Assembly: GCA_019914995.1 (NCBI GenBank)
Contig: CM034142.1
Location: 1,922,001 to 1,986,000 of the forward strand
DNA length: 64,000 nucleotides
Reading direction: 5' to 3'
Source: Acanthochlamys bracteata
Lineage: Eukaryota > Streptophyta > Magnoliopsida > Pandanales > Velloziaceae
The notes beneath the pieces were generated by a model. It saw only the letters and a list, made by a program, of their open reading frames with translations. It had not been told where the DNA came from and made no database searches. Positions within the stretch are counted from its first letter, which is position 1. Each line of letters begins with the position of its first letter. The position numbers and the translations under genes are program-made. Below are positions 31,758-59,287 of this stretch, piece by piece.

Positions 31758-31773
31758 TATATATATATATATA
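31758..31773. repeat. (TA)n tract, left flank of the 6.0 kb MULE
   Basis: TA repeats directly abut the MULE terminus. Confidence 0.9.
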
Positions 31774-32788
31774 GGATTGAGATATATACACATATATTAC
31801 TGTGCATACACACCCACACACCCAATCTCAGCCGTCTGATCGCTTGATCAGACGGCTGAAAGAGAAAAAAAACGCGAAGAAAGAAAACGCGGTGCGAGCA
31901 AGGACTTATCCAATTTTCATGCGTTCCCTTTCATTCTTCTTCCTCGTCTCGCCCGAGCACGACTCTCTCTCGCCTTCCTCTCAATTGTTCCTGCCGGTGC
32001 TCTCCCACCGGCAGGCTTCGCTTTTCTTCATTTCTTCTTCTTCCTCTCTTCCTCGGTGTGCTCTCCGGCGTTTCTTTCTCTCTTCGGGCGGAACGAGCGT
32101 GTGTGTGGATCGGTTCGGGTTTCGCCGTCGACCACGATTAAGAGAATCCGACGACATGAATGGGAAATTCCCTCTGTCTCCCTCCTATGTTACTTTTCTT
32201 AGCTTCAATTTCACCCGCTCCGGTGATTTTTACGGTCCGACTGGCTAAGGCTGCTCCGAGTCGCCGCGGTAAGGTAATTTTTTTAATTCTTGATTTTCTT
32301 CTCTCAATTGATGTTCTCTTTCGAACCCGTAATTTTGTTGAGTTTTTTTGCATTTTTCTCTCAGAATTGGCAGGGCCGATCGGCTCACCTAGGATGCTGT
32401 CGAAGACGATAGTTCTGTAAGGTTGAATTTGCGATAATTTTATTAGTTTGCTTCACATTGTGGTAAGCTCTTGGTTGTTTTTGTTCAGTTTTTTATTCTT
32501 TTGGTGAGTCGATTTTGTTCAGTTTTTTCGTTGGCTGATGATGTTCGGCGTGTTTTTTTTTTTCCTTTCTGTTACAGGGAAGAGTTCATGCAGTGTCAAA
32601 GATTTGCTCAAAGCATTCGAGAAAAAGGTTCAAAGCTGCTCACGGCTCACCATAATTTCTGTTATATTTTTTGAATTTCTTCTCAGCTGGAGCAGCTTCC
32701 TAAGCTCATGTTGTGTCATTCCTCTCAAGACATTCCTAAGCTGCAGCAGCTGAAAAAATTCCTTCTTGTCAAGATTTCTGAATGTTCA
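31774..32788 (+). repeat. MULE-1 left inverted arm
   Basis: The arm is about 1 kb and matches the right arm inverted. A perfect hairpin lies 60 bases from the tip. A Ser/Arg-rich open frame runs through it (31,802-32,248). It is partly open in the right arm too (37,703-37,506, minus strand), but has no domain. Confidence 0.9.
31830..31859. promoter_or_regulatory. subterminal hairpin in the MULE-1 left arm
   Basis: CAGCCGTCTGATC and GATCAGACGGCTG face each other across four bases. The same hairpin occurs at 37,648-37,677 in the right arm. A comparable one (CCGTCCGATC...ATCGGACGG) lies in the 37.8-39.3 kb element. It may be a binding site for transposase; that is inference. Confidence 0.7.
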
Positions 32789-33425
32789 CATTCATGTGCT
32801 TGTACTGTCAATCTGTTTGTCTTGTAAAGTAGATGTTGTGTTTAGAACAGAGGAAGTTGAGAAAATGAATTACCTTCTTTGTAATTGTGGTGAATGGAAT
32901 GAAGGAAGTGTTCTGAATGAATTATTTTGCCAAATCTGTAAATGATTTTCTTGTGGCTGAATTATTCTGAATGAATGAGCATCAGTTTGTGAATGAAGTG
33001 TTGTTTTAATGTAGTAACGAATGAAATCGTTGTGAATACTATGAATGAAGCTGTTGAATCAGTAAGTGGAGAATAGATTACTTAATCTATTCAACTAATG
33101 TAATCAGTAAGTATTGGCACTAATTAAATTATTAAATTTTTATTAAGTTTGTATTGAATTAAAATAAATTGTAATATTAGCAGGTTGCTGCTTATACGAA
33201 AATATTATTTTAAGAGATATGGGTGATCATTAACTGCATGAATGGATAGGGTGGGAGAATGCACAGAGCGCAGGAGATAGCTAACAGTCTCTGTTCTTTC
33301 TTTCCTCCTTTTTCTGTTTTGTTTTCTGCTCTCTGTTTTGCTCGTTTTCGCTGTTCTTTTTCTGCTTCTTCATTCTTTTTTTTTTCGTTTCAAACCTTCT
33401 CCTTAACATTCTAAACTCCAGCACT

Positions 33426-35936
33426 ATGGCACATGAATTAAAAGGTATTTGTTTGTCAAGCATCAAATTTACAGCATTACTGTTTCATTCATTACTATAT
33501 TTGAAATTTTGTTTCTCTTTTTCAAAAAATTCAGATTTTGAGTTTGGTTCTCCTCTTCCAAATTCGAATGCAACAAATGAAAATGTCAAGTCACCGCATG
33601 CAGAGATGATATTTGGCAGCCTTGAAGAAGCGAAACAGTTCTATATAAATTATGGAAAATCCAATGGATTTAGTGCGGTGATTCGAAGTACAAATAAGAG
33701 AGTTCGAGGCTCAGATGAAGTAACTACTTGCCAAATGACTTGTGATCGTTTTGGAAATCATAGGAGCCACCCAAGACAAAGTACAGAACAAGAATTAAAA
33801 AAGAGAAGCACGAGTACGGCGAAATGCGGATGTTCTGCAACAATGAGAGTAACAAAACAAGCTACTGGATTGTGGAAAGTTGTGACGTATATCAATAAGC
33901 ACAATCACGATCTAGTTAGTCCAGCAAAGAGGATGCTCATGCCCGTTTGTAAAAATATACCTCCTGCAGCTAAGTGTTTGATTGATTCATTTCGGGATGA
34001 AGGCTTACCCGTCAACAAAGTTGCAAATATATTTGATGGATCACAAAATGATTTTGATGACAGGGATTGCTGGAATAATTTTTGCCGTTCGAAGGAGTAC
34101 AAAAAACCTATTGGAGGTGATGCTACTGCAGTGTTTGATTTCTTTAAAAGAAAAAGTATAGAAGATCGAAATTTCTTTTATGCAATACAAATGGATAATG
34201 AAGCAAGGACAATCAATTTTTTCTGGGTAGATGGTCGATCACGTATTCAATATGAATATTTTGGTGACGTGATATTTTTTGACACTACCTATAGAAAAAA
34301 TGTGTATGACATGCCATTTGCGCTATTCACTGGAGTTAACCATCATATGCAGTCAATCCAGTTTGTTTGTGCATTACTTTTGGATGAGACAGAAGAATTA
34401 TTTCAATGGCTTTTTGAAATATGGCTTGCAGCTATGGGCGGCGTGCCCCATCTTCAATCATGACAGATCAAGACAGAGCTATGACAGCAGCTGTTGCGAA
34501 GATATTCCCAAATACACGACATAGATTTTGTTTATGGCATGTTATGAAAAAATTTGCCGAAAAGTTTTCACATGTTTATTTCAAGAAGTCAAAATTTAAG
34601 AAGGATATCAAGTCGTGTATTCGGGATACTTATATTCCTAACATCTTTGAAAAGAGGTGGGAGGAATTGATATGTGCATATGAGTTGTAGGAAAATGAAT
34701 GGCTTCAAGGAATATACGAGATTCGACAAAAATGGGTACCTGTCTATCACTTGAATACATTCTATGCAGGCACGAACACTACTGGATGCTCTGAACGTAT
34801 GAATGCTACATATAAAAAAAATTTTCAACCAACAACAACTTTCCGAGAATTTGTATTGAAGAACGACAAGTTTTTGAGCAGAATGGTTGCAAAAAGAAAA
34901 AAAAGAGGATTATATCAGTGAACACTCATCTCGTATTATCAATGGTAATTCACTTGTTTTGAAATATGCTGCAAAAGTATATACAAGGAATGTGTACAAG
35001 AAATTCAAGACAGAATTTGAGAGAGCTGAAACAGAGTATGCCCTTTACGACGATGAAAAAGATAGTGATGGCTACACGACTTATATTTATAAGTCTCGAG
35101 TGGAAGGTGATCGGCGTGAGTGGAAGGTAAAATTTTGTCCATCAACAAAGGAAGGTAACTTGAATGTAAACTTTTTGAGTTTATGGGGATTCCTTGTGGG
35201 CACCTTATAAAGGTTTTCTAAAGTCGTGATATAGAGATATCAGATCAGTTTGTCCTTAAAAGATGGATGAAAGGGGCTAATAAATATAGAGCCAACTACG
35301 ATGGTGGACCAGTAAAGAGCAATGAGAAGTCTGAGCTATTGAGAACTACACAACTTCAAATGGTTTTCAATCAATTGATTTATGAAGCGGCCGAAACAGA
35401 CGAGGGATATCAAATCATGTTGCTAACATCACAAGAACTGTCACAACGGCTCAAAGAAGTAAGAAAGGTTGATAATAGGGATAAGATTCTTGTTGACACT
35501 TCAGGTACCAATGACAGCTCATCAGCACCAATTGATGTCTCTCAAGTTTTATTTTTAAATTCCAATATCTCACAAACCAAGGGAAGAAAAAAAGAAGGAA
35601 ATGTTTATAAGGGCAGTACTAGAATTGAAGGAGGTTTGGAGAGAGCTACTTCAAGAGGCAAAGCGAAAATGGGAAGAAAATGTGCTTACTGTAACAAGTA
35701 TGGTGTTCAACATGACAAACGAAATTGTTCTGAAAATCCAAATAGAAAAAAAAAGACAAGTAGGTATTATAATTTTCGTAGTTTTGATTCCTAATATATT
35801 TTATTTTTTTGAAAAAAAATTGAAATTGACATGTGTCTTCATTTTCCTACTGATAGTTCTTGATAGAGATGATGATAAAGACACAAGTGAAGATGGAGAT
35901 AGTGTAGACGAAGAGTTAGCTATTCATTTGGAGTAA
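33426..35936 (+). pseudogene. MULE-1 transposase (FAR1 domain, DDE core, SWIM, zinc knuckle)
   Basis: The ATG at 33,426 starts a six-codon first exon (MAHELK). A GT-AG intron (33,445-33,534) joins in phase to DFEFGSPLPN. Domains in order: FAR1-type DNA-binding (about 33,600-33,930, CGCSATMRV and HNHDLVSPAKR); MULE transposase core with DTTYRKN (first Asp, near 34,281), TDQDRAM (second Asp, near 34,463) and CLWHVMKKF; a degraded SWIM region (about 35,150-35,215); a knuckle CAYCNKYGVQHDKRNC (near 35,680). A second intron (35,760-35,856) leads to an acidic tail ending at 35,936. Lesions: one-base loss near 34,440, Gln-to-TAG at 34,688-34,690, and frameshifts near 34,895 and 35,155. It cut and joined the element's ends when intact. 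It is not a host FAR1 gene, because it lies inside inverted arms. Confidence 0.92.
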
Positions 35937-36357
35937 AATTAATAAAGTGCTGATGCTATGTATCTGTTTTTGTTTAATGAAATTTAAAAAAAAAATCATA
36001 TTTGTTCGAAAATGTTTGGAGATATGCATGCCTTTGAAGGAGAATTGATGATGCAAGTTTTTCCTTAAGTAAGCTCTGTGTATAGCTCTCTGTAATATAG
36101 CTCTACAAGTTCTTTTCAGCAATATAGCTCTTTGTTGCTGTGCAAGTTTTGTCAAGTAACATATAGCTTTCTGTATAAATCTGCTCTATGTTCAAGGAAA
36201 AAAAAGGAAACAGAAAAGCTGGGAGCCTCTATTGTTTTGATTTCATATATGCTGTTTGATTTATCTGTTTTGAACATATATTGTCTGATTTCACTGTTTT
36301 GAACAAATGCTACTGTCCAGATGAATGAATGAATCCAGATGAGTTCATTCATGCATT

Positions 36358-36505
36358 CATCGCCAGCATTCACTGCTAGTTAACAGCACTTCATTCACTT
36401 TAATTTCACAGCACCTCATTCATTCATTCATTGCCAGCATTCACTGCTAGTTAATAGCACTTCATTCACTTTGATTTCATAGCACCTCATTCATTCATTC
36501 ATTCA
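36358..36505. repeat. two tandem units of about 70 bp inside MULE-1
   Basis: The unit GCCAGCATTCACTGCTAGTT...CATTCATTCATT occurs twice in a row with few changes, in the subterminal region just inside the right arm. Confidence 0.7.
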
Positions 36506-36737
36506 TTCATTTACTAAACAGACAACAGCTGCACAATTAATCAAAGCATATTTGTTTTCACAGCACTTCTGATTCATTCATTCATAAAGAATTCACTAGT
36601 GATAGCATCCACAAGAAACCATTCACAGCTTTAGCTCAATATTTCATTCAAAACAACAGAATTCATTCTTTTATCCAATAAAAACTTCATTCACGACGGT
36701 TTGACAGTAGTACACAAAACAATAGCTAAACAAATGC

Positions 36738-37731
36738 TACATTCAGAAATCTTGACAAGAAGGAATTTTTTCAGCTGCTACAGCTTAGGAATGTCTTGAG
36801 AGGAATGACACAACATGAGCTTAGGAAGCTGCTGCAGCTGAGAAGAAATTCAAAAAATATAACAGAAATTATGGTGAGCCGTGAGCAGCTTTGAACCTTC
36901 TTCTCGGATGCTTTGAGCAAATCTTCGACACTGCATGAACTCTTCCCTGTAACAGAAAGGGAAAAAAAAAACACGCCGAACATCATCAGCCAATGAAAAA
37001 ACTGAACAAAATCGACTCACCAAAAAAATAAAAAACTGAACAAAAACAACCAAGAGCTTACCACAATGTGAAGCAAACTAATAAAATTATCGCAAATTCA
37101 ACCTTACAGCACCATCGTCTTCGACAGCATCCTAAGTGAGCCGGTCGGCCCTGCCAATTCTGAGAGAAAAATTCAAAAAAACTCAACAAAATTACGGGTT
37201 CGAAGGAGAACATCAATTGAGAGAAGGAAATCAAGAATTAAATAAATTACCTTACCGCGGCGACTCGGAGCAGCCTTAGCCAGCCGGACCGTAAAAATTA
37301 CTGGAGCGGGTGAAAAGCTAAGAAAAGCAACATAAGAGGGAGACAGAGGGAATTTCCCATTCATGTCGTCGGATTCTCTTAATCATGGTCGACGGCGAAA
37401 CCCGAACCGATCCACGCGCACGCTCGTTCCGCTCGAAGAGAGGAAGAAACGCCGGAGAGCACACCGAGGAAGAGAGGAAGAAGAAGAAACGAAGAAAAGC
37501 GAAGCCTACCGGCGGGAGAGCACCGGCAGGAACGATCGAAAGGAAGGCGAGAGAGAGTCGTGCTCGGGCGAGACGAGGAAGAAGAATGAAAGGGAACGCG
37601 TGAAAATTGGATAAGTCCTTGCTCGCACCGCGTTTTCTTTCTCTTTCAGCCGTCTGATCAAGCGATCAGACGGCTGAGATTGGGTGTGTGGGTGTGTATG
37701 CACAGTAATGGGTGTGTATATATCTCAATCC
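36738..37731 (-). repeat. MULE-1 right inverted arm
   Basis: It is the inverted counterpart of the left arm, with the same subterminal hairpin and a terminus directly abutting (TA)n at 37,732. Confidence 0.9.
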
Positions 37732-37756
37732 ATATATATATATATATATATATAGA
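37732..37756. repeat. (TA)n tract between MULE-1 and the next element
   Basis: The TA repeat is shared as the flank of both elements. Confidence 0.92.
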
Positions 37757-39344
37757 GGGTGAAGATATACACACTCTAGGCTACTATACGTGCACTCCAC
37801 CACTCTAATTGTGAACCGTCCGATCGTATATCGGACGGCTCACAATCAACACAAATGAAAAATTTACGGGATCACTGTGAGGGACACGTCGTCATTTCGC
37901 GTGCCTGTCTACAGTGATCCCGTAAGAGGTCCGTCTGCAAATGGTAGCTGGAGTGCATCCTTCTCCCCGTAGCCTTCCTCTCTTCTTTCATTCTCTTCGT
38001 CTGCAGTCTGCATTCTTCCCGTCGCCCCTCCAAGCCAGCTCGAGTAATCTCCGGCCAGTTTTTCGAGCTCATGCTGCCATTCCTTCATCTTCTCCTTCCT
38101 TTCAATTTATTTCAAAAATTCGCTCCCGAAATCGGAGTCGATCGAAACCCCTATCACGTCCGAACCTTCAATCGCCGGCCGGCGATCTTCAATTCGAAAC
38201 CAGAACCTCTTTTTCTATCTCCTGCTCCTTCTCTTCCTACTCCCGTCATAAATTTCATCAATTACAGCCCGTCGGCCGTTTTCGTTGTTCGTCGTGAAAC
38301 TGTCGCCGTGCCGAGTGCGATAATTATGTGAAAATTTTCTTTTATTATGATTTCTTTATAATTGGCATTCACACCACTAAAGAATCTGTCATTCATTACC
38401 AGCAAAAAAAAAAAAGAAACCAAGTCAGATGGAATGCTAACACGACTGAAGAATCGGCATTCATTAACAGATTCTCTGAAGGTTTCATTTTTTTTTTTCT
38501 TCAGACTCGGGTAGTGCTCCAGCAGCACCTCCTCCTTCTCCGGCTCAGGTCCGAGCACGGCAGATGGAATGCACCGGCAATCTCAACTCACTGCAAAATA
38601 ATAAAAATTAAAATAAGACTTACATCACATCGTTGTACATGGACGAATTCGCCGACGGTAGATGAATTCGCCTACGATTCCAACAAAAATCAATTCAAAT
38701 AATAAAGAAATAATATGACAAAAATACAAATAAATTATAAAGAAATCATAATAAAAGAAAATTTTCACACAATTATCGCACTTAGCACGGCGACAGTCTC
38801 ACGACGAACAACGAAAACGGCCGACGAGCTGTAATTGATGAAATTTATGACCGGAGTAGGAAGAGAAGGAGTAGGAGAGAGAAAAAGAGGTTCTGGTTTC
38901 GAATTGAAGATCGCCGACCGGCGATTGAAGGTTCGGACGTGATAGGGGTTTCGATCGACTCCGGTTTCGGGAGCGAATTTTTGAGAGAAAATGAAAGGAA
39001 TGAGAAGATGAAGGAATGGCAGCATGAGCTCGAAAAACTGGCCGGAGATTACTGAGAAATGGCTTGAGGGGGGCGTCGGGAAGAATGCGCATCGCATTTT
39101 AAGAGAATGAAAGAAGAGAGGAAGACTACGGGAGAAAGAGGCACTCGCCTACGTTATAGACGGACTTTACGGATCATCAGAGACAGCACGCGAAAAATGA
39201 CGAACGTGTCCCTCACAGTGATCCCGTAAGTTTCTCATTTGTGTTAATTGTGAGCCTCCGATATGCGATCGGACGGTTCACAATTGGAGTGGTGGAGTCT
39301 TATATATATAGATGATATATAGCTGGAGTGTGCATATCTTCACC
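37757..39344. mobile_element. non-autonomous MULE-like fold-back element, 1.6 kb
   Basis: The termini read GGGTGAAGATATACACAC on the left and GGTGAAGATATGCACAC inverted on the right. The inverted arms are about 600 bp (37,757-38,358 and 38,735-39,344). Each has a subterminal hairpin (CCGTCCGATC near 37,817) and a long GC-rich block. The centre of about 375 bp has no transposase. The termini resemble MULE-1 (GATATATACACAC), so a MULE-1-type transposase is the likely mover. Ser/Pro-rich open frames in both arms carry no domain. Confidence 0.85.
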
Positions 39345-39349
39345 AATAT

Positions 39350-39388
<39 letters not shown>
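39345..39388. repeat. (TA)n tract
   Basis: An interrupted TA tract (with TGTA units) into which the copia element inserted. Confidence 0.9.
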
Positions 39389-39389
<1 letters not shown>

Positions 39390-39538
39390 GTTGGCGTGAG
39401 TCAACACATAATTTATTTTAAATACTTTTCTAATTATTTTAGATATTTTTTTTAGAATTAGATATTTTTTTATTATTTTAGAACTCTCATTATTTAGTAT
39501 TATAAGGAGTCTATATATATATAATAGTTTTTTCATCA
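39389..39538 (+). repeat. copia 5' LTR (150 bp)
   Basis: It begins TGTTGGCGTGAGTCAACA and ends TTTTTCATCA. The 3' LTR is about 32 bases longer near its end. Confidence 0.88.
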
Positions 39539-39550
39539 TGGTACCAGAAC
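39539..39550 (+). promoter_or_regulatory. copia primer-binding site (initiator tRNA-Met)
   Basis: TGGTACCAGAAC immediately follows the LTR. The usual plant copia site is TGGTATCAGAGC. Confidence 0.8.
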
Positions 39551-39898
39551 AAAAATCTTAGATCTGTCCGCCGCCGTCGTGGAGATAACGACTGTTACGG
39601 CCAGATTTCGACTAGATTATCCGTTGCGATTGTGGAGATAAGATTACAACGGTTAGAAATTCCGACCAACATAAATCCGTCGTTTTAACCGGATTAGATC
39701 TACAGAAAGAAAAAAAAAATCATCATCAAACCTATCTGCCGTCGCCGTCGTCGACACTTCCGCCACCGCCGCTTACTATCACAATAGTCGCTGCCTCAAT
39801 AGCGGATCCATTTGCTCTGCGTCCGGTCGCCGCCGCTGCATCGCTCAATCAAATCTTTACCGCCGATCGCTCTTGATTCAAACTCAGATTTGAGCTGA

Positions 39899-42800
39899 AT
39901 GGAGACATGTACTTATTGTGGTAAGTTTGGCCACAATAAAGATTCATGTTTCAAATTAATTGGATATCCAGATTGGTGGGAAGAATTGAGGAAAAAAAGA
40001 AAGCTCCTTAGAGAAGCACAGGTTGGTTCAGATTTTTCAAATTCAGGTAACGAAACATGTGGTTTAAATACCATTTCAGATTCTAACAACGAGATGAATT
40101 TTAGACTCTGGAGCCACGGATCATATGACATTTGATCCGAAAAACTTTCATACCACGACTACTCCAGTTAGACATAATGTGACATATTCTAATGGAGACA
40201 TTTATCCAGTGACAGGTGCTGGGATAGTGATGTTGACACCATCTTTGTCTCTACAGGATTGTTTACTTGTTCCTTTTTTATCAAATAACCTATTGTTTAT
40301 TGGACAAATCACTGAACAATTGAATTGTATTGTTCTATTGTATCCACATTTTTGTTTACTTCAGGATATCCAGACACATGAGATTATTGGGCGTGGTACT
40401 AAAATAGGAGGCCTATATTATTTGGATGATATCAGTTCCGGAAGAGTTCATAGCCTTTGTGGATCTGATATTGACAAGAAGAATAAAGTTTGATTTTGGC
40501 ATTGATGACTAGGTCATGTTTTTTTTGCCTATTTACGTCATTTATTGCCCTCTTTATTTTCTGGCCTCAAAGAGTCTGAGTTTTAGTGTGAAGGTTGCAT
40601 TTTTACTAAGAGTCACCGAGTGCCTTATTCTTCTGTTATGAGTAAACGATCAATTCCGTTTGAATTAGTACATTCGCATGTTTGGGGACCCTCTCCCATT
40701 ATGACACTTACCGGCATTATGTGGTTTGTGATATTTGTGGATGATTGCATAGGTATGACATGGTTATATACTTTAAAAAGTAAAAGTGATGTAGTAGATA
40801 TATTTGTACGGTTTCACAAGATGGTGCAGACTCATTTTCTTTTCCTATTCGAGTTTTTCGCTCTGATAATAGAGGAGATTATGTTAATATCTCTTTAAGC
40901 TCTTAGCTTCATCAGAATGGTATTATTCATGAAACCTCATGTTCATACACACCACAATAAAATGGAGTAGCTGAAAAAAAAAATCGACATATTTTAGAGA
41001 CCGCCCGTGCTTTATTATTTGGAGCTCATATTCCAAAGCACTATTGGGTAGATGCAGTTCAGTCTGCAGTTTCTTTGATTAACCGTATGCCTTCTAGAGT
41101 GCTAAATTTTCGGACACCACTTGAGGTTTTAGCTACATTTGTCACTATACATTCTGTTCTTTCACTTCCACCTCGAATTTTTGGATCTGTTGCATTAGTA
41201 CATTTACAGAAGACTCAGAGGAACAAATTAGATCCATGTGCTTTGAGGTGCATTTTTCTTGGTTATGCTCCTCAGCAGAAAGGTTATCGCTGTTATCACT
41301 CAGCACACATATTGAGGAAGGTCAGAGACAATGTATGAGTTATCACTCAGGTCTAAAAGAGAATAGAACTACTGAATATGAATTAAAAGAAATAGAAGAG
41401 GTAGAAAGAGCTGAAGTTGTGGGAGAAATGCCTCACTCGCATCCTTTAGTACCTCTTCAAACTACTGAGGATATCCTTGAGATAAGCACCGAAACTCAAA
41501 ATGCTGTTGTGGATAAATCTAACATTGTCACCAGGAGTTATTAGTTGCCATACAGAGAAAATCGTGGAAAACCTCTTTAGAGATATTCACCAGAAGAAAA
41601 AGTCTCTAGATATCCTATTGCTAATCATGTATCTTCTCACAGACTGTCTTCTTCATATGTGGCTTTCCTTAATCAGGTAGGAGCTGTGACTCTTCCTTCT
41701 AGCACTAGAAAAGCCTTATCCGATCCTAAATGGACTAAGGCTATGAATGACGAGATGGATGCTCTTCAGAAAAATTTGATTTGGGAGATAGTGCCACTAC
41801 CAGAAGGAAAGAAAGCAGTTGGTTGTAAGTGGGTGTACACTATTAAACACAAAAGTAGATGGAACGATAGAGAGATATAAGGCAAGATTAGTGGCCAAGG
41901 GATATTCACAGACTTATGGAGTGGATTATCACGAGACATTTGCTCCAGTTGTAAAAATTAATACCATCAGAGTATTGCTGTCTCTCGCAGCAAATCTTGA
42001 TTGACCTTTACAGCAGTTTGATGTAAAGAATGCATTTCTTCATGGTGAATTAGAAGAAGAAGTATATATGGAACTTCCGCCTGGTTATAGTGTATTGGGA
42101 AAAACTGACTATGTCTGCAGGCTAAAAAAGGCTCTATATGGGCTAAAACAATCTCCAAGAGTAAGGTTTGGTAGATTTAGTTAAGTCTTAAACAGATATG
42201 GTTACTGAAAGAGTAATGCTGATCATACATTATTTTTGAAGAACCGGAATGATAAGGTAACTACTTTGATAATCTATGTTTATGATATAATTGTTATAGG
42301 TAATGATCATGAAGAAATTTAGAAATTGAAGACATATCTAGCGTCTGAATTCGAGATGAAAGAACTTTAAAAGTTGAAATATTTTTTGGGCATTGAAGTG
42401 ACCAGATCTAAGTAAGATATTTTTCTATCATAAAGAAAATATGTCATTGACTTATTATCTAAGACAGGAATGTCGGATTACAAACCTACCGACACACCTA
42501 TCATTGAGAATCATAACTTAGTAACGCTCCCTAATCAAGTGCCAGTAGCTAAGGAAAAATATCAACGATTAGTTCAACCTCGTTGATTTATTTATCACAT
42601 ACTCGTCCTGATATAGCATATGCCGTTAGCGTTGTCAGCCAGTTTATGCATTCTCCAAGTGTTGATCATATGGAAGTTGTGAACAGAATTCTGAGATACT
42701 TGAAATCTGCACCAGACAAAGGATTATTATTTAGAAAAAATAATTATCTAAATATATATGGATATACTGATACAGACTGGGCAGGAGATAAGATAGATAG

Positions 42801-43233
42801 ACGCTTTACATCTGGCTATTTTACATTTGTTGGAGGTAATCTAGTCACATGGAGGAGTAAGAAACAGAAAATTGTTGCTCGATCTTATGTTGAAGCTAAA
42901 TATAGAGAAATGACACATGGAGTTTGTGAATTTTTATAGCTTCGAATATTATTGACAGAGCTTGGTTTTCCTCCAAGGAGTTCTATGAAGCTATTTTGTG
43001 ATAATAAGGCTGCAATAAATATTGCTCATAATTCAGTACAGCATGATCGCACCAAGCACGTTGAGGTGGATCGACATTTCATCAAAGAGAAACTAAATTC
43101 AAAGTTAATTGAGTTACCTTTTGTGAACTCCGAAGCACAGCTAGCAGACATAGTGACAAAGGGTGTCTCGAGTAGAATTTTTTATGACTCACTAAGCAAG
43201 TTGGGTATCGATGATATCTTTGCACCAACTTGA
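39899..43233 (+). pseudogene. copia gag-pol region
   Basis: Parts in order: a nucleocapsid zinc knuckle (CTYCGKFGHNKDSC, near 39,908); protease and pre-integrase region (about 40,090-40,490); integrase (about 40,620-41,330, with RCIFLGYAPQQKGYRCY at its C-terminal end); reverse transcriptase (about 41,700-42,300, [20 protein letters not shown]); RNase H (about 42,583-43,233, TDTDWAGDKIDRR and FCDNKAAINIAHN). The region is clearly broken. Copia is certain from the domain order and RT motifs; the clade is not assigned. Confidence 0.9.
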
Positions 43234-43240
43234 GGGGGAG
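43231..43240 (+). promoter_or_regulatory. copia polypurine tract
   Basis: TGAGGGGGAG lies directly before the 3' LTR. Confidence 0.85.
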
Positions 43241-43420
43241 TATTGGCGTGAGTCAACACATAATTTATCTTAAATATCTTTTCTAATTATTTTAGATATC
43301 TTTCCGTAGAATTAGATATTTTTTTAATATTCTAGAACTCTCATTATTTAGTATTATAAGGAGTCTATATATATGTGTTTGTATTGAACTATTGAAACAA
43401 GATTGAAACAGTTTTTTCAT

Positions 43421-43422
<2 letters not shown>
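43241..43422 (+). repeat. copia 3' LTR (182 bp)
   Basis: It starts TATTGGCGTGAGTCAACA and ends TTTTTCATCA, followed at once by (TA)n. Confidence 0.88.

Positions 43423-43452
<30 letters not shown>
43423..43452. repeat. (TA)n tract
   Basis: The TA tract lies between the copia and the next fold-back element. Confidence 0.95.
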
Positions 43453-43454
<2 letters not shown>

Positions 43455-43865
43455 GGAGGGATAGAGGCACTCCCTCTTTAAGGGCACTCCCGTGCACTCC
43501 CTCTCCGGTTTATGATCGGGGTGACCACCAAATCCAATCTCCACCGTTGAAAATGAAGAATTATTAATTAGAAACATATATATAAAATTTCAGCTCAATC
43601 GGACTACGAATTCACGTCCACCCGATCACTTGATCAAAATGACAGAAATGATACAATATATATTTTTATATATTCTTACTTTCTGTCAATTTGATCAAAT
43701 GACCCGATGGACGTGAATTCGTAGTCTGGTTGAGCTGAAATTTTGTGAATATGTTTCTAACTCATAGTTCTTCATATCTAACGGTGGAGATTGGATTTTT
43801 AGGTCACCCCGACTATAAACCGGGGAGGGAGTGCTCTTAAGGAGGGAGTCCCCCTATCCCTCCCC
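43453..43865. mobile_element. fold-back MITE with MULE-2-type ends
   Basis: It starts GGGGAGGGATAGAGGCACTC and ends with the inverse (CCCTATCCCTCCCC). The two arms of about 190 bp are inverted copies carrying the family core (CCACCGTTG, CAGCTCAATCGGACTACGAA, GATCAAAATGACAGAAAT). There is no coding capacity. The ends match those of the 6.4 kb MULE at 44,983. Confidence 0.88.
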
Positions 43866-44060
43866 TATTGATTCATCATTATCAAGTGACCAGATGAAGC
43901 TATATTCGTAGTCCGATCGGAATGAAATTTTGTCAGTATGTTAACGACTCGTAGTTCTTCATATACAACGATAGAGATTAGATTTGGAGGTCTCCAGGGC
44001 CACAAACGGCGATGGAGTGCGCTGGAGTGTGCATAAGAATTAGAGTGCCCCTATCCCTTC
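43866..44060. repeat. right half of another fold-back element
   Basis: Only one arm is present, from TATCAAGTGACCAGATGAAG to GAGTGCCCCTATCCCTTC before (TA)n. The missing left arm suggests truncation by the neighbouring insertion. Confidence 0.75.
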
Positions 44061-44097
44061 ATATATATATATATAGATATGTATATATATTTATATA
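44061..44097. repeat. (TA)n tract
   Basis: An interrupted TA tract. Confidence 0.9.
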
Positions 44098-44448
44098 CAG
44101 GTTTTTTATGCGCACAATCGTGCACATCAGTCCGGTACCATCGATACAAATCTCCCTATATGATATTCATAGTTGGACATGAAAAATTATAAGTTGAGAA
44201 TATTTTGACTAAATTTAAATTCAATCGGAACATAACTCAACCTTTATCGGACTTCCTAATTAAGATGACAGAAATAAAACAATATTCTATTTTTCAATTT
44301 TTTTTATATTAATTGATTTGTGGTTCGATTGAGTGATTGAGTTGAAAGTTTCTTGACATATTCTCAACTTGCAGTTCTTTATACGTAACCGTGAAGATAT
44401 ATTTGGAGCTTTGTACCGGTAGAACCAGACCAACCTACGCCAACATGC

Positions 44449-44450
<2 letters not shown>
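44098..44450. repeat. fold-back element, divergent termini
   Basis: The arms mirror each other (CCGGTACCATCGATACAAAT against GCTTTGTACCGGTAG) around a T-rich centre near 44,290. The family core is degenerate (CATAGTTGGACATGAAAAAT). The ends do not carry the GGGGAGGGATAG motif, so this is a separate subfamily. Confidence 0.7.

Positions 44451-44499
<49 letters not shown>
44451..44499. repeat. (TA)n tract
   Basis: About 48 bases of nearly pure TA. Confidence 0.95.
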
Positions 44500-44501
<2 letters not shown>

Positions 44502-44895
44502 TAGGGGCACTCCCTCCTTAAGGACACTTCCGAGCACTCCCTCTCCGATTTATGACCGGGGTAACTCCCAAATCCAATCTCCACCGTTGGATATAAAGAA
44601 CTATGAGTTAAAAATCTTTCCACAAATTTTCAGCTCCATCCAATTACTTGATCAAGATGACAGAAATGATACAACATATATATTTTTAAGTTTTTCTACT
44701 TTCTGTTATTTTAATCAAATGATCCGATGGAGTTAAATTCGAGGTGCGATTGAGCTGAAAATTTATGGGTAGGTTTCTAACCTATAGTTCTTCATATCCA
44801 ACGGTGGAGATTAGATTTGAAAGTCACCCCGGCCATAAATCGAAAAGGGAGTGCCCGAAAGTGCCATTAAGAAGGGAGTGCCCCTATCCCTCCCC
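44500..44895. mobile_element. fold-back MITE with MULE-2-type ends
   Basis: The left end GATAGGGGCACTCCCTCC and right end GAGTGCCCCTATCCCTCCCC are inverse copies. The core is as in the 43,453 element. It is non-coding. Confidence 0.87.
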
Positions 44896-44982
44896 TACAT
44901 ACATATATATATATATATACATATATATACATACATATATATACATATATATACATACATATATATACATATATATATATAT
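44896..44982. repeat. (TA)n tract with TACA interruptions
   Basis: Nearly 90 bases of TA/CATA repeats form the left flank of the 6.4 kb MULE. Open frames reading Tyr-Ile repeats through it are not genes. Confidence 0.93.
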
Positions 44983-46663
44983 GGGGAGGAATACGGGCAC
45001 TCCTTCCTCTCGGGCACTCCACTACGTGTAAACATCCCGAGCAGTTAACATCTTTTATTTATCTCATCCAACGCGCTCGGTTTGTATATATTTTGTTCGT
45101 CCGAAATTTTGCGTTTTGGCCGATATCTCACTGCATCGGCACGTACCTTCACTGACACCTTACGAATTCTCTCTCCTCTTTTGGTTTTGTTAATTTTCAT
45201 TACTACTAATTAATTTGGCTTATGTTAATCAAATTCATTTTTTAATTAACTTGTTTTCTTATTAACTAAACTCATTCGTTTATTTTGTAGATGAGATGTA
45301 TTTCAATTTTCTTTCTCGTGGTCTTGGCAGCCACGATCGTCCGTGAGTGGCCGACGACGATCTCAACTGGCAATAGCTTATCTCTCAGCGCGATCTCTCC
45401 TCTGTGCTCTCCGCAGCAACTGACGGCGATCTCTCACGGCGTCTCTTCCGTGTGCGATAGACAGCTAGTCATGGCCGACGGCGATTTTTTCTGGCAGCAG
45501 CTCAAGACGATCTCTCCTGTCTGCTCACATCAGCAACTCACGGTGATCTCTCACGGCTTGTCTGTCCAGTGTGCTCTCGGCAGCTACTCATGGCCGACGG
45601 TGATTTTTATAGGCGGCAGCTAGCTAGTTGTGGCTTACGGCGGTATTTGTCAGCAGCAGCTCAGCCACTCATGGCCGATTCGAAATTTTGATGCAGTTTT
45701 ATTTTTTTTTTTAGTTTTGAATTCATTGATTTGAGTTAGTGATTTGTTTTGAATTCGTTTGATTTGTCTTTTTTTTCTTAGTTTTGAATTCTATGATTTT
45801 TCTTTTCCTGTGTTTTTTTTTGGTGTATTTTGTTTTTCTTTGGTGTATTGGATTCTTTGATTACTGGAAATTTTCACGGTGTATTGTATTTTTTTATGTA
45901 TTGCTTTTCTGTGGTGTATTGAGGTTTTTGATGTATTGATTTATGGTATTGAAATTGTTCTGATGAATGCTGGATGTCGTTCGAATAATGCCAGATGTTG
46001 AGGCAATGATGAGGGAAAAAAATTGAAAGATGTAGGATCTGTTAGACTCAGCAGTTGTTCTTTTTTCTAACTCCACACTACCTCTCAAAGTGCACAGCAA
46101 GGCAGTAAGGATGGCCATATCTCTGTATGTGGCAACCACTGCAGCTGCAATTAGAGAAGGCATGTAGTGAAGGAGAGAGCAACTGATGGTGAAAATAGTC
46201 CTGGAACGGGTAGCTCTACAAAATCTCGATGATCGAGTGAAGGCGAATCTGAGCCTCCCTCTTCTTTTCATATCTGTTTTGTTGTTGACTTGTTATTACA
46301 TCTTTATATGGAAAAGTGATCGATGAATTACAAAAGTTGGATGGTTGCGTTCTCTACTATCCCTGGATGGACAGATATCTTCAATGTATAATGTATGGAT
46401 GGATCAGTTACCAGGTAGGAATGCCATGAATGTAAATAGAGAGCTTTTGTAAGCAGATAGCTCATGTAATTACTGTGTAAGTACAATCACGTACAGTTAC
46501 CAATGTTCGATATACAATTCAACGGAGATGTCAAAGAAACTCCGTTCGATTATTCTTATAAAATTTTTCTATAATCTATCTTTATGTAAACTTTGAATTA
46601 TTAATAAAGCTGTTTATTTCTTACTCCACTCTTTATATTTTTTCAACTGATCCACTCTTAATA
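44983..46663 (+). repeat. MULE-2 left inverted arm
   Basis: It is inverted to 49,655-51,362 with few differences. It contains a GC-richer block (45,290-45,690) built of two related units of about 115 bp (each with GGCGATCTCTCACGG-like and CATGGCCGACGG lines). Confidence 0.92.
45291..45623 (+). CDS. hypothetical ORF in the MULE-2 left arm, signal-peptide-like start
   Basis: A 110-residue open frame begins MRCISIFFLVVLAATIV, a hydrophobic signal-like segment, just after a TTTTGTAG that could be a splice acceptor. The rest is a Ser/His-rich repeat (LTAISHGVSSVC, MADGDFFWQQL). The same frame stays open from the matching ATG in the right arm (51,050 to 50,736, minus strand). Its function is unknown, and it may be incidental to a repetitive GC-rich block. 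A second frame, MKRRGRLRFAFTRSSRFCRA, is likewise open in both arms (46,271 down to 45,894; 50,048 to 50,272). Confidence 0.25.
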   Translation: MRCISIFFLVVLAATIVREWPTTISTGNSLSLSAISPLCSPQQLTAISHGVSSVCDRQLVMADGDFFWQQLKTISPVCSHQQLTVISHGLSVQCALGSYSWPTVIFIGGS

Positions 46664-46971
46664 ATGTTTTTTCTTTGTCATTATCAACTTTAAAATAAGT
46701 TCTCATTAACACATTATGTTAATGAGAGTTTTATTTCTAAATCATCTGGGGAGCATATTCGAGGTATACCGATACAACATTTCTCCCGCGCTAATCATTT
46801 TTTTTCTGCGCTTATCATATTTGTTCCCGCTAAATTTTGTTCTCTTATCTTTCTTCTTTATTTGTTCCTTCTTCACTACTACGGAGCATTCAACTACAAA
46901 ATTTTAGTATTAGAAAACAAGTTCTATTCAGTTCTACAAACTAGAAATATTCTCCAGCAATAACTGTGACT

Positions 46972-49377
46972 ATGGCCGACTGTTCTATTGCTCCAATTCC
47001 AGACGTAGTAATAGATAAGGAAAATTCACCGTATTTAGATATGCTTTTTCCAAGTCTCCAAGCTACAAAAGAAATATACATAAATTATGAAAAAGCAAGT
47101 GGATTTAGTGTTATTACTAAAAGTACGCAAAAAAGAAATTTAGATTCGGAAGAAGTTACTACTTGCGAAATGACAAGAAAAGAACAACTGAGGTGCCTGA
47201 AGTAGAAGCAAGTCAAAAGAGAAACAGAAATGCAGTAAAATGCAAATGTCCTGCAAGAATGAAAGTGATAAAACAACGTACTGGTTTGTGAAAAGTGGTG
47301 AAATATAATGACAACCACAATCATGGATTAGTTAGTCCTGCAAAAAGAATGCGTATGTCTGTCTGTAAAAGTATGCCTGCTGCAGCTAAGATGTTAGTTG
47401 ATTCATTTCGTGATGAAAGTATACCTGTAAATAAAGTTGCAGATATATTTGATGGTCTACAGTATGATTTTGATGATAGAGATTGTGGAATCATTTAAGA
47501 TTTACAAAGGAGTACAAAAAATCTGTCACAGGAGATGCCATCGCAGTGCTTGATTTTTTTAAAAAGAAAAACTTAGAAGATCCAAACTTTTTCTATGCAA
47601 TACAGATGGATAGCGAAGCAAGGGCAGTAAATTTTTTCTGAGTAGATGGTCGATCACGTTTACAGTTTCAGTACTTTGGCGATGTATGTTTTTTGATACA
47701 ACATATCGTAAGAATATGTATGAAATACCATTTGCGCCATTTACAGGAGTTAATCATCATATGAAGTCGATTCAGTTTGGTTACGCCTTGCTTTTGGATG
47801 AGACAGAAAAGTCTTTTTGTTGGCTTTTTGAGACTTAGCTTGCTGCTATGGGTGGGCGTGCCCCATTTTCTATCATCACAGATCAAGACAGAGCTATGAC
47901 TATAGCGGTTGAGAAGGTATTTCCAAACACCCAGCACCACTTTTGTTTATGGAATGTGATGAAAAAATTTCCTAAAAATTGTCTCATATTTATTTCAAAA
48001 AGTCACGGTTCAAAAAAGATTTCAAAATGTGTATTAGAGACACCTATACTCCTAGTGTTTTTGAAGCAAGATGGGAGGAATTGTTATGTACTCACAACTT
48101 GCAGGAGAATTGCTAGCTTCGAGGAATGTATGAAATTAGAAAAAAGTGAGTTCCAGTTTATCACTTGGACACTTTTTATGCTGGTATGAACACTACAGGA
48201 CACTCTGAAGGTACGAACTCTGTTTACAGTAATTTTTTCCATTCAACGACAACTCTTCGAGAGTTTGTTTTGAAGAACGAGAAGTGTTTGGCTAAAATTG
48301 TTGAAAAGGAAAAAAAAGAAAATTATATTAGTGAACATTGTAATCACATTGTCGATAGTCATGCCTTTCTTCTGAAGAATGCAGCAGATGTGTACACGAG
48401 AAATGTGTACGATAAGTTCAAAAAAAAATTTGATAAAGCTCTCGCCGAGTATGTTCTGTTCGACAATGAAAAGAAAAGTGATGGCTATACAGCATATATT
48501 TATAAGTCTCGACTGCTTAGTGATGAGCGTGCGTGGAAAGTGAAGTTCAACCATGCCACAAGAGAAGGTTATTGTGAATGCAAACTATTTGAGTTTGTAG
48601 GAATTCCTTGTGGTCACCTTGTAAAAAGTTTTTTTGTCTCGTGACATGGAGAAAATACTTGATCATTTCATTTTGAAAAGGTGGATGAAAGAAGCTAATA
48701 AATATAGAGTTGAATATGATTGTGGTGCGGTGCAAGGACATGAGAATTCTCATCTACTGAGAACTACCCAACTATTAAGGTTTCTAATCAATCATCTTAT
48801 GAAGCTGGTGAAGCAGATGAGACTTTCCAATTGATGTTGGAAGCATTACAAGAATTGTCGTTACGGATCAAAGAAGTAAGAAAGACTAAAGAGATGCAAC
48901 AGATGCATTCATGTACCGCTAATGAGACTTTACAAGAGGCAGTTAATGCATCTCAAATTCTACTCTTGAATCCCCACATCTCGCAAACTAAGGGAAGGAA
49001 AAAAGAAGCAAAAACTTCATTCCGAGTCGGAAAAAGAATAAAAAGTAGCTTGGAAAAAGCCATTGCAAAAAACAAAGCAGAGACATGGAAGAGATGTACT
49101 TGTTGTAACAAGTTTGGCGTTAGACATGACAAACGAAATTGTCCTGAAAATCTAAATAGAAAGAAGAATATGAGTAAGTATAATAATTACTTAATTTTGG
49201 TTCATAATACAGTAACTCTGTTTTTGTAATTTAGTGTTGATATTTGATTAATTTTTTTATTTGATAGTTATTGATGAAGATGTTTACGAAGATGAAGATA
49301 ATAATCAAAACTCCATAGGTACAGATGAAGACGATGATAATATTGATGAAGTCTCAATTGGGTTTTCTTCTCACTGA
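46972..49377 (+). pseudogene. MULE-2 transposase (FAR1 domain, DDE core, SWIM, zinc knuckle, acidic tail)
   Basis: The ATG at 46,972 gives MADCSIAPIPDVV. Domains in order: FAR1-type DNA-binding (47,040-47,360; CKCPARMKV, NHNHGLVSPAKR); MULE core with TTYRKN near 47,700, the TDQDRAM motif near 47,879 and CLWNVMKKF; an intact SWIM zinc finger CECKLFEFVGIPCGH near 48,578; knuckle CTCCNKFGVRHDKRNC near 49,097. A GT-AG intron (about 49,172-49,267) leads to an acidic tail (DEDVYEDEDNN) ending at 49,377. Several family Trp codons are TGA or TAG (near 47,288, 47,639, 47,836, 48,114 and 48,147), and there are also frameshifts, so it is inactive. It is close kin of MULE-1. Confidence 0.92.
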
Positions 49378-49654
49378 TAAGAGTGGTGTTGTTCCTTGGT
49401 AACAGAGAAGAACTCGGCGTTCTGTAATGTACTGTATAAGCTAATATATCGTTACTGTTTTGTTATTTTGTATACTTTAGTTTAACTTGTTTAATTGTAA
49501 TACGATGTTATATAAACTAATACATTGTTACTGTTTTCGTATAATTTAGTTAACTTATTTAGTTGTAATATTTTGTCTGGGCTTAAGCAGCCTTCATCCA
49601 AATACGTCAACAGATACAATATTTAGTATATTTAGGGAGGAAAAAAAGTATGAG

Positions 49655-51362
49655 AATAAAAGAGTGGATCAGTTGAAAAAATATAAAGAGTGGAGTAAGA
49701 AATAAACAGCTATATTAATAATTCAAAGTTTACATAAAGATAGATTACAGAAAAATTTTATAAGAATAATCGAACGATGTTTCTTTGACATCTCCGCTGA
49801 ATTGTACATCGAACATTGGTAACTGTACGTGATTGTACTTACAAAGTAATTACATGAGCTATCTGCTTACAAAAGCTCTCTGTTTACATTCATGGCATTC
49901 CTATCTGGTAATTGATCCATCCATACATTATACGTTGAAGATATCTGTCCATCTAGGGATAGTAGAGAACGCAACCATCCAACTTTTGTAATTCATCGAT
50001 CACTTTTACATATAAAGATGTAATAACAAGTCAACAACAAAACAGATATGAAAAGAAGAGGGAGGCTCAGATTCGCCTTCACTCGATCATCGAGATTTTG
50101 TAGAGCTACCCGTTCCAGGACTGTTTTCACCATCAGTTGCTCTCTCCTTCACTGCATGCCTTCTCTAATTGCAGCTATAGTGGTTGCCATATACAGAGAT
50201 ATGGCCATCCTTACTGCCTTGCTGTGCACTTTGAGAGGCAGTGTGGAGTTAGAAAAAAAGAACAACTACTGAGTCTAGCAGATCCTACATCTTTCAATTT
50301 TTTTCCCTCATCATTGCCTCAACATCCGGCATTGTTCGAACGACATCCAGCATTCATCAGAACAATTTCAATACCATAAATCAATACACCAAAAACCTCA
50401 ATACACCACAGAAAACCAATACATAAAAAAATCCAATACACCGTGAAAATTACCAATACATCAAAGAATCCAATACACCAAGGAAAAACAAAATACACCA
50501 AAAAAAAAACATAGGAAAAGAAAAATCATAGAATTCAAAACTAAGAAAAAAAAGACAAATCAAACGAATTCAAAACAAATCACTAACTCAAATCAATAAA
50601 TTCAAAACTATAAAAAAAAAATAAAACTGCGTCAAAATTTCGAATCGGCCATGAGTGGATGAGCTGCTGCCAACAAATACCGGCGTAAGCCATAACTAGT
50701 TAGCTGCCGCAGATAAAAATCGCCGTCGGCCATGACTAGCTGCCGAGAGCACACGGGACAGACAAGCCGTGAGAGATCGCCGTGAGTGGCTGATGTGAGC
50801 AGACATGAGAGATCGCCATGTGCTGCTGCCAGAAAAAATCGCCGTCGGCCATGACTAGCTGCCGACCGCACACGGAACAGACGCCGTGAGAGATCGCGTA
50901 AGAGATCGCCGTTAGTGGCTGCATAGAGCACAGAGGAGAGATCACGCCAAGAGATAAGCTATTGCCGGGTGAGATCGCCGTCGACCACTCACGGACGATC
51001 GTGGCTGCCAAGAGCACGAGAAAGAAAAATGAAATAAATCTCATCTGCAAAAGAAACGAATGAGTTTAGTTAATAAGGAAACAAGTTAATTAAAAAATAA
51101 ATTTGATTAATATAATCCAAATTAATTAGTAGTAACGAAAATTAACAAAACCAAAAGAGGAGAGAGAATTTCTAAGGTGTCAGTGAAGGTACGTGCCGAT
51201 CCAGTGAGATATTGGCCAAAACGCAAAATTTCGGACGAACAAAAAATATACAAACCGAGCGCGTTGGATGAGATAAATAAAATATGTTAACTGATCGGAA
51301 TGTTTACATGTAGTGGAGTGCCCCGGAGTGCCCAAGGGGAGGGAGTGCTCGTATCCTTCCCC
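49655..51362 (-). repeat. MULE-2 right inverted arm
   Basis: It is the inverted counterpart of the left arm. It carries the same GC-richer repeated block (50,640-51,040) and an open frame equivalent to that at 45,291. Confidence 0.92.
50736..51050 (-). CDS. hypothetical ORF in the MULE-2 right arm, counterpart of 45,291-45,623
   Basis: The frame starts MQMRFISFFFLVLLAATIV and continues with the same SPLCS, ISHGV and MADGDFFWQQ lines as the left-arm frame. Preservation of one frame in both arms can come from recent arm homogenisation as easily as from coding constraint. No known domain. Confidence 0.25.
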   Translation of the reverse strand: MQMRFISFFFLVLLAATIVREWSTAISPGNSLSLGVISPLCSMQPLTAISYAISHGVCSVCGRQLVMADGDFFWQQHMAISHVCSHQPLTAISHGLSVPCALGS

Positions 51363-51364
51363 TA

Positions 51365-51416
<52 letters not shown>
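51363..51416. repeat. (TA)n tract
   Basis: About 50 bases of pure TA on the right flank of MULE-2. Confidence 0.95.
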
Positions 51417-51419
<3 letters not shown>

Positions 51420-51511
51420 AGGATAGGGCACTCCTCCTTATGGGCACTCCCTCCCAAGTTTATAGTCGGGGTGACCTCCAAATCCAATCTTCACCGTTGG
51501 ATATGAAGTTT
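51417..51511. repeat. left fragment of a fold-back MITE
   Basis: It starts GGGAGGATAGGGCACTCC and runs to the core line CTTCACCGTTGGATATGAAG. It then stops where sequence shared with the plus-strand peptidase duplicate begins, so it is truncated at the edge of the transposon block. Confidence 0.8.
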
Positions 51512-53351
51512 AAACATATATTTAAATGTGTTAACTACTAGCAATTTGATGGATATTGCTAAAAAAAAAACTAATATAATGGTCGGAAATGTACACACTT
51601 TCTACCGAAGCCAATCAACCAAGTTCAAATTGTAAAATGTGCAAAAGAAAATAAGTTATCAATCAAAACCTTTAATGTCAAATGAATAAAGATAAAAAAT
51701 GAAAAAATGCGCTTCTAAATGTCAAATTAAGAGAACCATGGATTACCATGGCTTTCCACTAATAAAGGAAGCTTCTCATTGGACTTAGCTTGATAAGAGG
51801 GATTTGTGGGAGGATAAAAGTATGCATAAGCATTTTGATCTGGTAAGTTAAAATATTCTTCATATTTGCTAACATCCGAAGAAGACCACACAATAGTGAA
51901 TTCTTGGGCTTTCGATTGCTTCTCACAAAGTCATCTGAAATAAGAGAAAGGAATTTTATGTTTATTAGAACTGTACTCTCCTGTAAAATTATCAACAATC
52001 AATTTGTGCTTACTTTTGCGACTAACAAAGGCATGGTAGCAGATGCACCTTTGATAAATATGCACCCACCTCCACAAACCTGTTAAAGGTATGAACATCT
52101 TTATGAAGTTACCTATGAAAACCCTTACTATTGCATGGAATTCAACCTACGATATTGTTAACATCAGTGAAGGGAATATCGAGCAATGAAAAGGAGTTCA
52201 AGACATAGTCCAAAATACCTGTATATGACCTTCCATTTCGCCTGCAGGTGCAAATAGACCATGTAAATAAACACCTTGCATCAGTACTTAATTATATATT
52301 GTAAAAACAAAACACATTCAACAAGCTTTCAAACCTATATGTGCATATCATCCTAGGATAATCTCCATCTTTCACCAAAAACCCAAAGTGGTTTTGTAAA
52401 TTTAGCGTTCAATGAATAGACAGGGACGACCTCATTCCTTCCGTCCAATCTGCAACCAAAAGACATACATATGCATTAAGTCAAATTTTCATGTTAGAGG
52501 CACTTATCCAAAAATTGTAAAAAGCGATATACAAGATGGTTTGTTAATCCTTCAGAAGCCTAAATTTTCTCCAATGATAGTATAAATTAGGGTACATCAA
52601 GAAGAAGCACACAGCTGAACATCAGGATGGCAAATAATTAACTGAAATATGAGAAGCGTAATGATTAACTTGTAATCATTGGCGTCTAACTGTCAGTTTA
52701 TTGGCGTCTGACTAGAAGTTTTACATATCAACATTAAATCTTGATTGCATTTAAAGACAGTGGTAAAATTGCACATTTGATGTACTAGAACTCATGTTTC
52801 CTTATATTAAGCAGTTTGCCAAGGGCATATATTTGCTCCAAAATTTCCAAAATAACCAAAGAATGGAGTAAAACTCTACTTTCAACTCTAGCAGTATATT
52901 ATCCTAGGTCACAGACAAGTTTTCGTGGATAATAAAACATATAGAAAGTTGATTACTGTTAATCAGCATGTTGTGATCTAGTTAAAGCACCTGTGACGCA
53001 CTCCAATGGACTGAGTGATAATCACACATCCGATGGAGAGTGTATAATTGAAAATTATTGCAGCCATCTGAATGACGCAAACAAAAGGAAACCACTAGAG
53101 GCTAATGGAAATTCACATTGCTCAAAGTTTGAAATACTCTTGTACTCGCTTTAAGCGATAATTTAATCAGCCACTAACTTGCAAATGTCATATACTCATC
53201 ATCAACACTAGGAGATAAAACTCAAACTATATAGGTCGCTGAAAATCCACCAAAGGAAGGATAGAAATGGTGCAAAGGAGACAGACATATGATCCTTAAG
53301 GCTACAATCCACTCCAAATTGGGGGCAACTAGCCTTCACTCTATTCATACA
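51512..53351 (-). repeat. inverted segmental duplication, minus-strand arm
   Basis: This is the partner of 2,025-3,897, covering four peptidase exons with introns. Indels distinguish the copies. For example, this arm lacks about 30 bases of the exon at 51,747-51,934 that the plus-strand copy keeps. Confidence 0.85.
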
Positions 53352-57058: not shown

Positions 57059-57076
57059 ATATATATATATATATAT

Positions 57077-57111
<35 letters not shown>

Positions 57112-57113
57112 TA
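57059..57113. repeat. (TA)n followed by (TTTA)n microsatellite
   Basis: About 18 bases of TA run into about nine TTTA units, forming the left flank of a fold-back element. Confidence 0.95.
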
Positions 57114-57499: not shown

Positions 57500-57520
57500 A
57501 TATATGTATATATATATATA
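57500..57520. repeat. (TA)n tract
   Basis: A short TA tract between two fold-backs. Confidence 0.85.
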
Positions 57521-57700: not shown

Positions 57701-57739
<39 letters not shown>

Positions 57740-58465: not shown

Positions 58466-58482
58466 TATATATATATATATAT

Positions 58483-59272: not shown

Positions 59273-59287
59273 ATATATATATATATG

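Follow-up and report, generated by a model that had tools for sequence, protein, structure and literature searches.

TA tracts as insertion targets of Mutator-like elements and their fold-back relatives in Acanthochlamys bracteata

Introduction

A stretch of 64,000 nucleotides from the genome of Acanthochlamys bracteata (C17:1922001-1986000, from an assembly of 195.5 Mb in 557 contigs; hereafter the window) contains a chain of transposable elements, in which two Mutator-like elements (MULEs), MULE-1 and MULE-2, and several fold-back elements meet alternating (TA)n repeats without a gap at their ends. The mode of entry into TA tracts is disputed, and the duplication made on insertion is unreadable inside such a repeat. 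Here we report on the base at the junction between element and repeat, which was scored over copies located by genome searches and identifies TA as the target of these elements and not as part of their termini. TA targeting is a known way for transposons to spare genes; the present case adds a simple parity test of the insertion mode.

Results

The order of units and tracts between 31757 and 51508, as read from the window sequence, agrees with a preliminary description of the window, and so does the recurrence of the same pattern at 21.9-22.4 and 57.1-59.3 kb. The features are as follows, with the strand where one applies.

21909-22377: (TA)n, fold-back at 21941-22351, (TA)n
31757-31773: (TA)n tract left of MULE-1
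31774-37731, forward strand: MULE-1, 6.0 kb
37732-37754: (TA)n tract at the joint of MULE-1 and fold-back
37755-39344: fold-back, 1.6 kb, MULE-1-like termini, arms 88% alike
39345-39388: (TA)n tract, interrupted
39389-43422, forward strand: long terminal repeat (LTR) retrotransposon, LTRs of about 180 bp, 5-bp flanks ATATA; putatively copia, the name used in the preliminary description
43423-43452: (TA)n tract
43453-43865: fold-back, 0.4 kb
between 43865 and 44061: truncated fold-back
44061-44097: (TA)n tract, interrupted
44098-44451: diverged unit
44452-44499: (TA)n tract
44500-44895: fold-back, 0.4 kb
44896-44982: (TA)n tract with TACA interruptions
44983-51362, forward strand: MULE-2, 6.4 kb
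51368-51416: (TA)n tract
51417-51508: fold-back end fragment
57058-59286: second chain, fold-backs with TA tracts between them

The joint after the fold-back end at 43865 is without a TA tract and represents the sole departure among the chain joints. The inverted ends of MULE-1 are about 1.0 kb long and 94.6% alike, those of MULE-2 about 1.7 kb and 93.2% alike. One open stretch of MULE-1 (33285-34460, forward strand) matches the FAR1 domain (PF03101, E 1.4e-16) and the first part of the MULE domain (PF10551, E 4.7e-14), the remainder of which lies in another frame at 34418-34687 (PF10551, E 4.1e-12); the MULE-1 stretches scanned gave no SWIM match. MULE-2 matches the MULE domain at 47839-48186 (PF10551, E 4.8e-10) and SWIM at 48150-48641, with no FAR1 match in the five stretches scanned. 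Both elements hence show the MULE transposase domain and the terminal inverted repeats that define Mutator-like elements, and they share 73% nucleotide identity across 2.2 kb of the coding part, which in both is split over several frames or exons and was read unmended. Judged by MULE-1, which has FAR1 and MULE domains in one open stretch, the lineage is predicted to be FAR1-type. The fold-back at 37755 has MULE-1-like ends; those at 43453 and elsewhere start with GGGGAGGGATA, much like MULE-2.

Genome searches with the outer 160 bases of MULE-1 and the outer 200 bases of MULE-2 gave 41 and 30 matches, respectively, and a search with a fold-back arm gave 103 matches from the 40 candidates scored out of 1288. 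In total 173 ends were located, the window's own included, and 156 were scored; the other 17 were left out because their termini matched poorly (one also had a short flank), and several of these also adjoin TA. An end was counted as lying in TA if a TA run of 8 bp or more began there, with no more than three stray bases at the junction. Such runs adjoin 26 of 30 MULE-1-type ends, 15 of 22 MULE-2-type ends, 85 of 103 fold-back ends and the single FB2-type end, and at several of the failing ends the TA is interrupted by a single base. Under the same rule, the background in 20 random stretches (30 kb in total) was 0.36% over all 28,800 sites and 2.5% over the 2,733 AT-rich ones, i.e. those with at least 18 of 20 bases A or T. 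The adjacency of element ends to TA is above chance, and the majority of copies lie within (TA)n, as is characteristic of MuTAnT-like elements. An unselected set was formed by all 35 exact genome matches to the 22-base fold-back terminus, two of them in the window. Here, 34 of 35 are found in a TA tract, which is perfect over 8 bp or more in 29 cases and interrupted in five; TA is absent in one. The comparison with random AT-rich sites had been proposed in the preliminary description; it places the other copies mostly inside TA, not outside, and upholds the earlier claim that whole 6-kb MULEs target TA together with the fold-backs.

If TA belonged to the inverted ends of the elements, the junction base, read inwards, would be equal at both ends, whereas a duplication of odd length in TA leaves bases that differ and one of even length bases that agree. 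This parity is kept through slippage, because slippage moves whole TA units. Junction parity therefore outlasts such slippage, is scorable in any genome with such elements and can distinguish a TA target from a TA-bearing terminus with no need for empty alleles. No earlier use of it was recognised among the papers listed by the literature searches, and newness is not claimed. Both MULE-1 ends in the window fit the odd case, with the junction bases A and T. From the located ends, 79 elements were paired. Of these, 42 had 16 or more consensus matches per terminus and an alternating run of 8 bp or longer at each side and were scored; 37 stayed unscored. Odd parity was found in 35 of 42 (MULE-1, 7 of 7; MULE-2, 2 of 2; fold-backs, 26 of 33) and in 27 of the 29 elements with the best-kept termini (at least 18 consensus matches). 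Shuffled pairing gave a mean of 21.7 odd pairs out of 42, and 0 of 10,000 shuffles reached 35. TA is the target of these elements and not their terminus.

The length of the duplication can be read from two copies outside TA. A 0.8-kb relative of MULE-1 at C15:6630295-6631105 is flanked by two copies of the 9-bp sequence AATTTAAAA, and an empty paralogue 27 kb off (C15:6657353, 92% identity) contains a single AATTTAAAA with the element absent. Likewise, a fold-back at C1:12833078-12833485 stands between two copies of the 9-bp sequence TTTTATAAT. The clear duplications thus stem from one MULE-1 relative and one fold-back, and MULE-2 outside TA gave no direct case. Odd parity and these two cases together argue for an ordinary 9-bp cut, in line with the target duplications of Mutator-like elements, which span 8-11 bp and typically 9 bp.

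Empty sites were searched with queries that joined the two flanks of an insertion, for 16 insertions in two sets of eight and with some hand edits; the matches are the best 40 of 487 and the best 40 of 236 candidates, and misses are not evidence of absence. One of the loci with an empty paralogue is the non-TA copy at C15:6630295-6631105; the others are four TA insertions, which have eight empties between them. The MULE-1 copy at C9:6092371 has empty paralogues with bare TA runs of 12 and 32 bp (the latter L164), the MULE-1 copy at C6:7829883 has empties with 10, 11 and 26 bp of TA (the last L167), and the fold-back at C13:4451705 has one with a TA run of 11 bp. Overall, a bare TA run of at least 10 bp is present at 6 of 8 empties and at 3 of 4 TA-inserted loci, so that the bare-TA empty sites for which the preliminary description had proposed to look do exist.

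Other candidate sites were set aside. The repeat left of MULE-1 was considered as a source of an empty site; its only other genome match lies inverted at window 22404-22495, and no empty site was readable there. At C8:5032695 bare TA connects neighbours that resemble those of a MULE-2 copy (C8:6241406); this site was left uncounted, being ambiguous between an empty site and an independent chain because both neighbours are repeat families. A fold-back beside MULE-1 interior sequence (C12:5736095) showed neither TA nor a duplication and looks like a rearrangement.

TA targeting alone leads to chains. Moreover, some units lie inside others, so that nesting at internal TA runs occurs: a MULE-1 copy and a fold-back each sit in the AT-rich loop of other fold-backs (one junction read per case), and a further fold-back lies at a native TA run of a copia-like LTR, where the far half of the fold-back and part of the LTR are missing (one junction read). 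Past the tract, 85 of 156 ends show within 160 bases a match to an element of the window, weak and internal matches included. A terminus faces another across the tract at 31 of 143 element ends versus 2 of 36 sides in a sample of 18 long tracts, with a one-sided p of 0.017 at up to 2 mismatches, 0.070 at up to 1 and 0.13 at up to 3, i.e. the contrast is not robust. The corresponding figures are 1 of 759 for random AT-rich sites and 6 of 28 for the scored exact termini of the unselected set. A first run, which included one more short motif later dropped because it matched chance sequence, had given 50 of 143 versus 10 of 36 (two-sided p 0.55). The sampled tracts were 20, all from the first 7.8 Mb of C1, and two that fill the fetched stretch were omitted. 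The preliminary description had proposed that each insertion renews the target and lets chains grow. This claim is weakly supported, the excess of facing termini being dependent on the threshold; chain growth faster than TA availability is not shown by the facing-terminus comparison.

The copia element of the chain had also been taken to follow the TA rule, which does not hold. Elsewhere in the genome 0 of 21 LTR starts lie in TA (21 of 44 matches examined, window copy excluded); at least 4 of these 21 are 3' LTRs, preceded by internal sequence of the element itself, and are uninformative on the target. The element was accordingly ruled out as a TA-targeting member. ATATA on both sides of the chain copy is consistent with a TA tract that was hit by chance and duplicated over 5 bp, and the presence of the element in the chain is an incidental insertion.

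Discussion

The literature already describes TA-targeting MULEs that include an autonomous member, as well as element chains with microsatellites at the joints, under the names MuTAnT, SaTar and Ac-mMITEs. MuTAnT of Medicago truncatula comprises the 4.9-kb putative autonomous AutoMuTAnT, similar to the Jittery transposase, and fold-backs of 200-300 bp; it targets TA, makes a 9-bp duplication outside TA and has short TA at empty sites (PMC4486113). By description, not sequence, it shares with the elements studied here the Mutator-like type, the TA target, the fold-backs and the 9-bp duplication outside TA. The open reading frame of AutoMuTAnT is complete, in contrast to the degenerate MULE-1 and MULE-2, and chains, which are present here, are not among the features described for MuTAnT in the main sections of PMC4486113. 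Chains with microsatellite joints connect our elements with SaTar and the AgS- and ArS-MULEs of guayule and rice, in which unrelated MULE-type elements are chained by microsatellites, about 30% being linked, and which include MULEs of autonomous size (5.3 kb, 400-bp inverted ends; PMC5907723). SaTar differs by 10-bp duplications in copies outside microsatellites, varied microsatellites and many flanks reported as incompatible with a duplication, while here both clear cases have 9 bp, the repeat is mostly TA and parity fits duplication; nesting as seen here is not reported for SaTar (PMC5907723). The Ac-mMITEs of pineapple are flanked by dinucleotide repeats, mostly (TA)n, in more than 80% of cases, 46.1% are clustered through adjacent insertion, and 9/10-bp duplications occur outside repeats (PMC8449440). 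An autonomous element was not found for them, whereas two MULE types with similar termini exist here. Finally, Micron of rice and TAFT of maize, as cited in PMC4486113 and PMC5907723, are alike to the present elements in their TA-microsatellite targets, again by description and not by sequence.

Our data support the notion, to which we assign a probability of roughly 0.84, that a Mutator-like lineage and its fold-back derivatives insert by cut-and-paste with a 9-bp staggered cut and a strong bias to pre-existing TA tracts, with chains as the result. MULEs and fold-backs with similar termini would thereby enter alternating TA tracts as strongly preferred targets, and the 9-bp duplication would leave TA on either side of the element. 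Replication slippage could later let both TA pieces grow or shrink by whole units, and further members might enter the remaining pieces and so build chains. What is observed is the target bias, the odd-length duplication, the bare TA at 3 of 4 loci and, outside TA, two duplications of 9 bp, of which one has an empty paralogue. The transposase itself presumably prefers TA tracts, a transposase of the MULE-1/2 type probably mobilises the fold-backs, and the longer flanks would come from slippage.

Several points weigh against this reading. Transposition itself was not observed, and MULE-1 and MULE-2 of the window are degenerate. A perfect run of 8 is missing at 7 of 22 MULE-2-type ends, and other non-TA ends displayed no clear duplication by eye where looked at, such as those of MULE-2 type at C10:5344345 and 5352770. 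One of the four empties of C6:7829883 (L168) is without a TA run (longest 5), and so is the sole empty of the fold-back at C15:947602 (L169, longest 3); in these two cases the insertion or a later event may have lengthened the tract, or the paralogue may have lost it. Seven of the 42 pairs scored for parity are even, six of them with eroded or divergent termini and one (C19:2329856) intact and unexplained. Furthermore, the boundary rule was changed after the first counts. The first rule placed the boundary at the initial G of the terminal run and yielded 27 odd versus 18 even over all scorable pairs. Many of the even cases had lost a terminal G and their junction was thereby displaced by one base; for this reason the boundary was then set by ungapped consensus alignment, blind to the partner end. 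Pairs with intact terminal Gs yielded 12 odd versus 1 even already under the first rule, and this strict subset is independent of the change.

Among other explanations, TA repeats that belong to the termini and are carried along on transposition would account for the TA beside the ends of most copies. The preliminary description had named this as one of the findings that would overturn its view, and it is contradicted on several sides: equal junction bases are predicted in inverted ends and 35 of 42 pairs differ, two copies without TA have clean 9-bp duplications, and a bare TA run stands in 6 of 8 empties, which leaves this explanation hardly credible. It is also improbable that TA-rich regions are just the places where insertions survive, without target choice. 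The weak selection acting on microsatellites has been argued in this sense (discussion of PMC4486113), but the copia LTRs of the same genome have 0 of 21 starts in TA and the junctions lie exactly within alternating TA, not merely near it. The model of PMC5907723, in which circular intermediates that carry a microsatellite filler undergo recombination with TA tracts of the genome, would explain the chains and, in guayule, flanks that are often at odds with a duplication; as we understand it, no fixed parity is predicted, and the odd parity in 27 of the 29 best-kept elements makes it very improbable here.

Insertion into short TA motifs (4-12 bp), which insertion or repair then expands to long tracts serving as new targets, is compatible with the 9-bp cut and differs from the preferred reading in the origin of the tract. 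At the occupied sites, the pure flanks summed minus 9 amount to 26 bp (C9), 17 bp (C6) and about 47 bp (C13), versus 12/32, 10/11/26 and 11 bp in the empties. Expansion fits the C13 locus (about 47 versus 11 bp at C13:4451705), the shorter empties (17 versus 10-11 bp at C6:7829883) and the empty L169 without a tract; it would also agree with MuTAnT empties of nine repeats versus about 15 per flank (PMC4486113) and with the expansion at maize TAFT as cited in PMC5907723. However, uninserted empties can be equally long, and two exceed the occupied sums without any insertion (32 bp in L164 versus 26 bp at C9, 26 bp in L167 versus 17 bp at C6), and the paralogues are 71-92% alike, which gives time for tract length to drift. 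We therefore consider expansion a tentative, rather unlikely alternative to entry into pre-existing tracts. Likewise rather unlikely is its extended form, in which the elements create their own habitat. Each 9-bp cut would fall in a short TA run and be followed by TA expansion on both sides, so that more long target would be made than used, chains would outgrow TA availability and a share of the long tracts would be by-products. Such tracts (at least 20 bp) number roughly 3,000 genome-wide, a figure estimated from 2,993 matches on the assumption that four possible end types are equally common.

Some further observations were made in and around the chains. The sampled tracts included a compound TA/TACA array of several hundred bases (C1:5139730-5140202, L180), which is longer than the others. 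A 92-bp sequence occurs at 22404-22495 and, inverted and 95% alike, at 31658-31749; the genome search found these two places only, and each copy adjoins the TA tract of a chain, which suggests a local inversion or copying event between two chains. Another inverted repeat of 1.8 kb (2034-3896 and 51519-53323, 85% alike) has one copy that begins directly after the last fold-back fragment of the chain. Between 4377 and 21548 lie two tandem copies of about 9.3 kb (97.4% identity), followed by their first 1.3 kb a third time; a reverse transcriptase match is also present, and the whole looks like two retrotransposons with a common middle LTR. Finally, the MULE-1 relative at C15:6630295-6631105 (L024/L031) lies in a short loop flanked by a sequence in two inverted copies; together with the insertions in fold-back loops this hints that hairpin-prone sites, TA tracts among them, attract the element.

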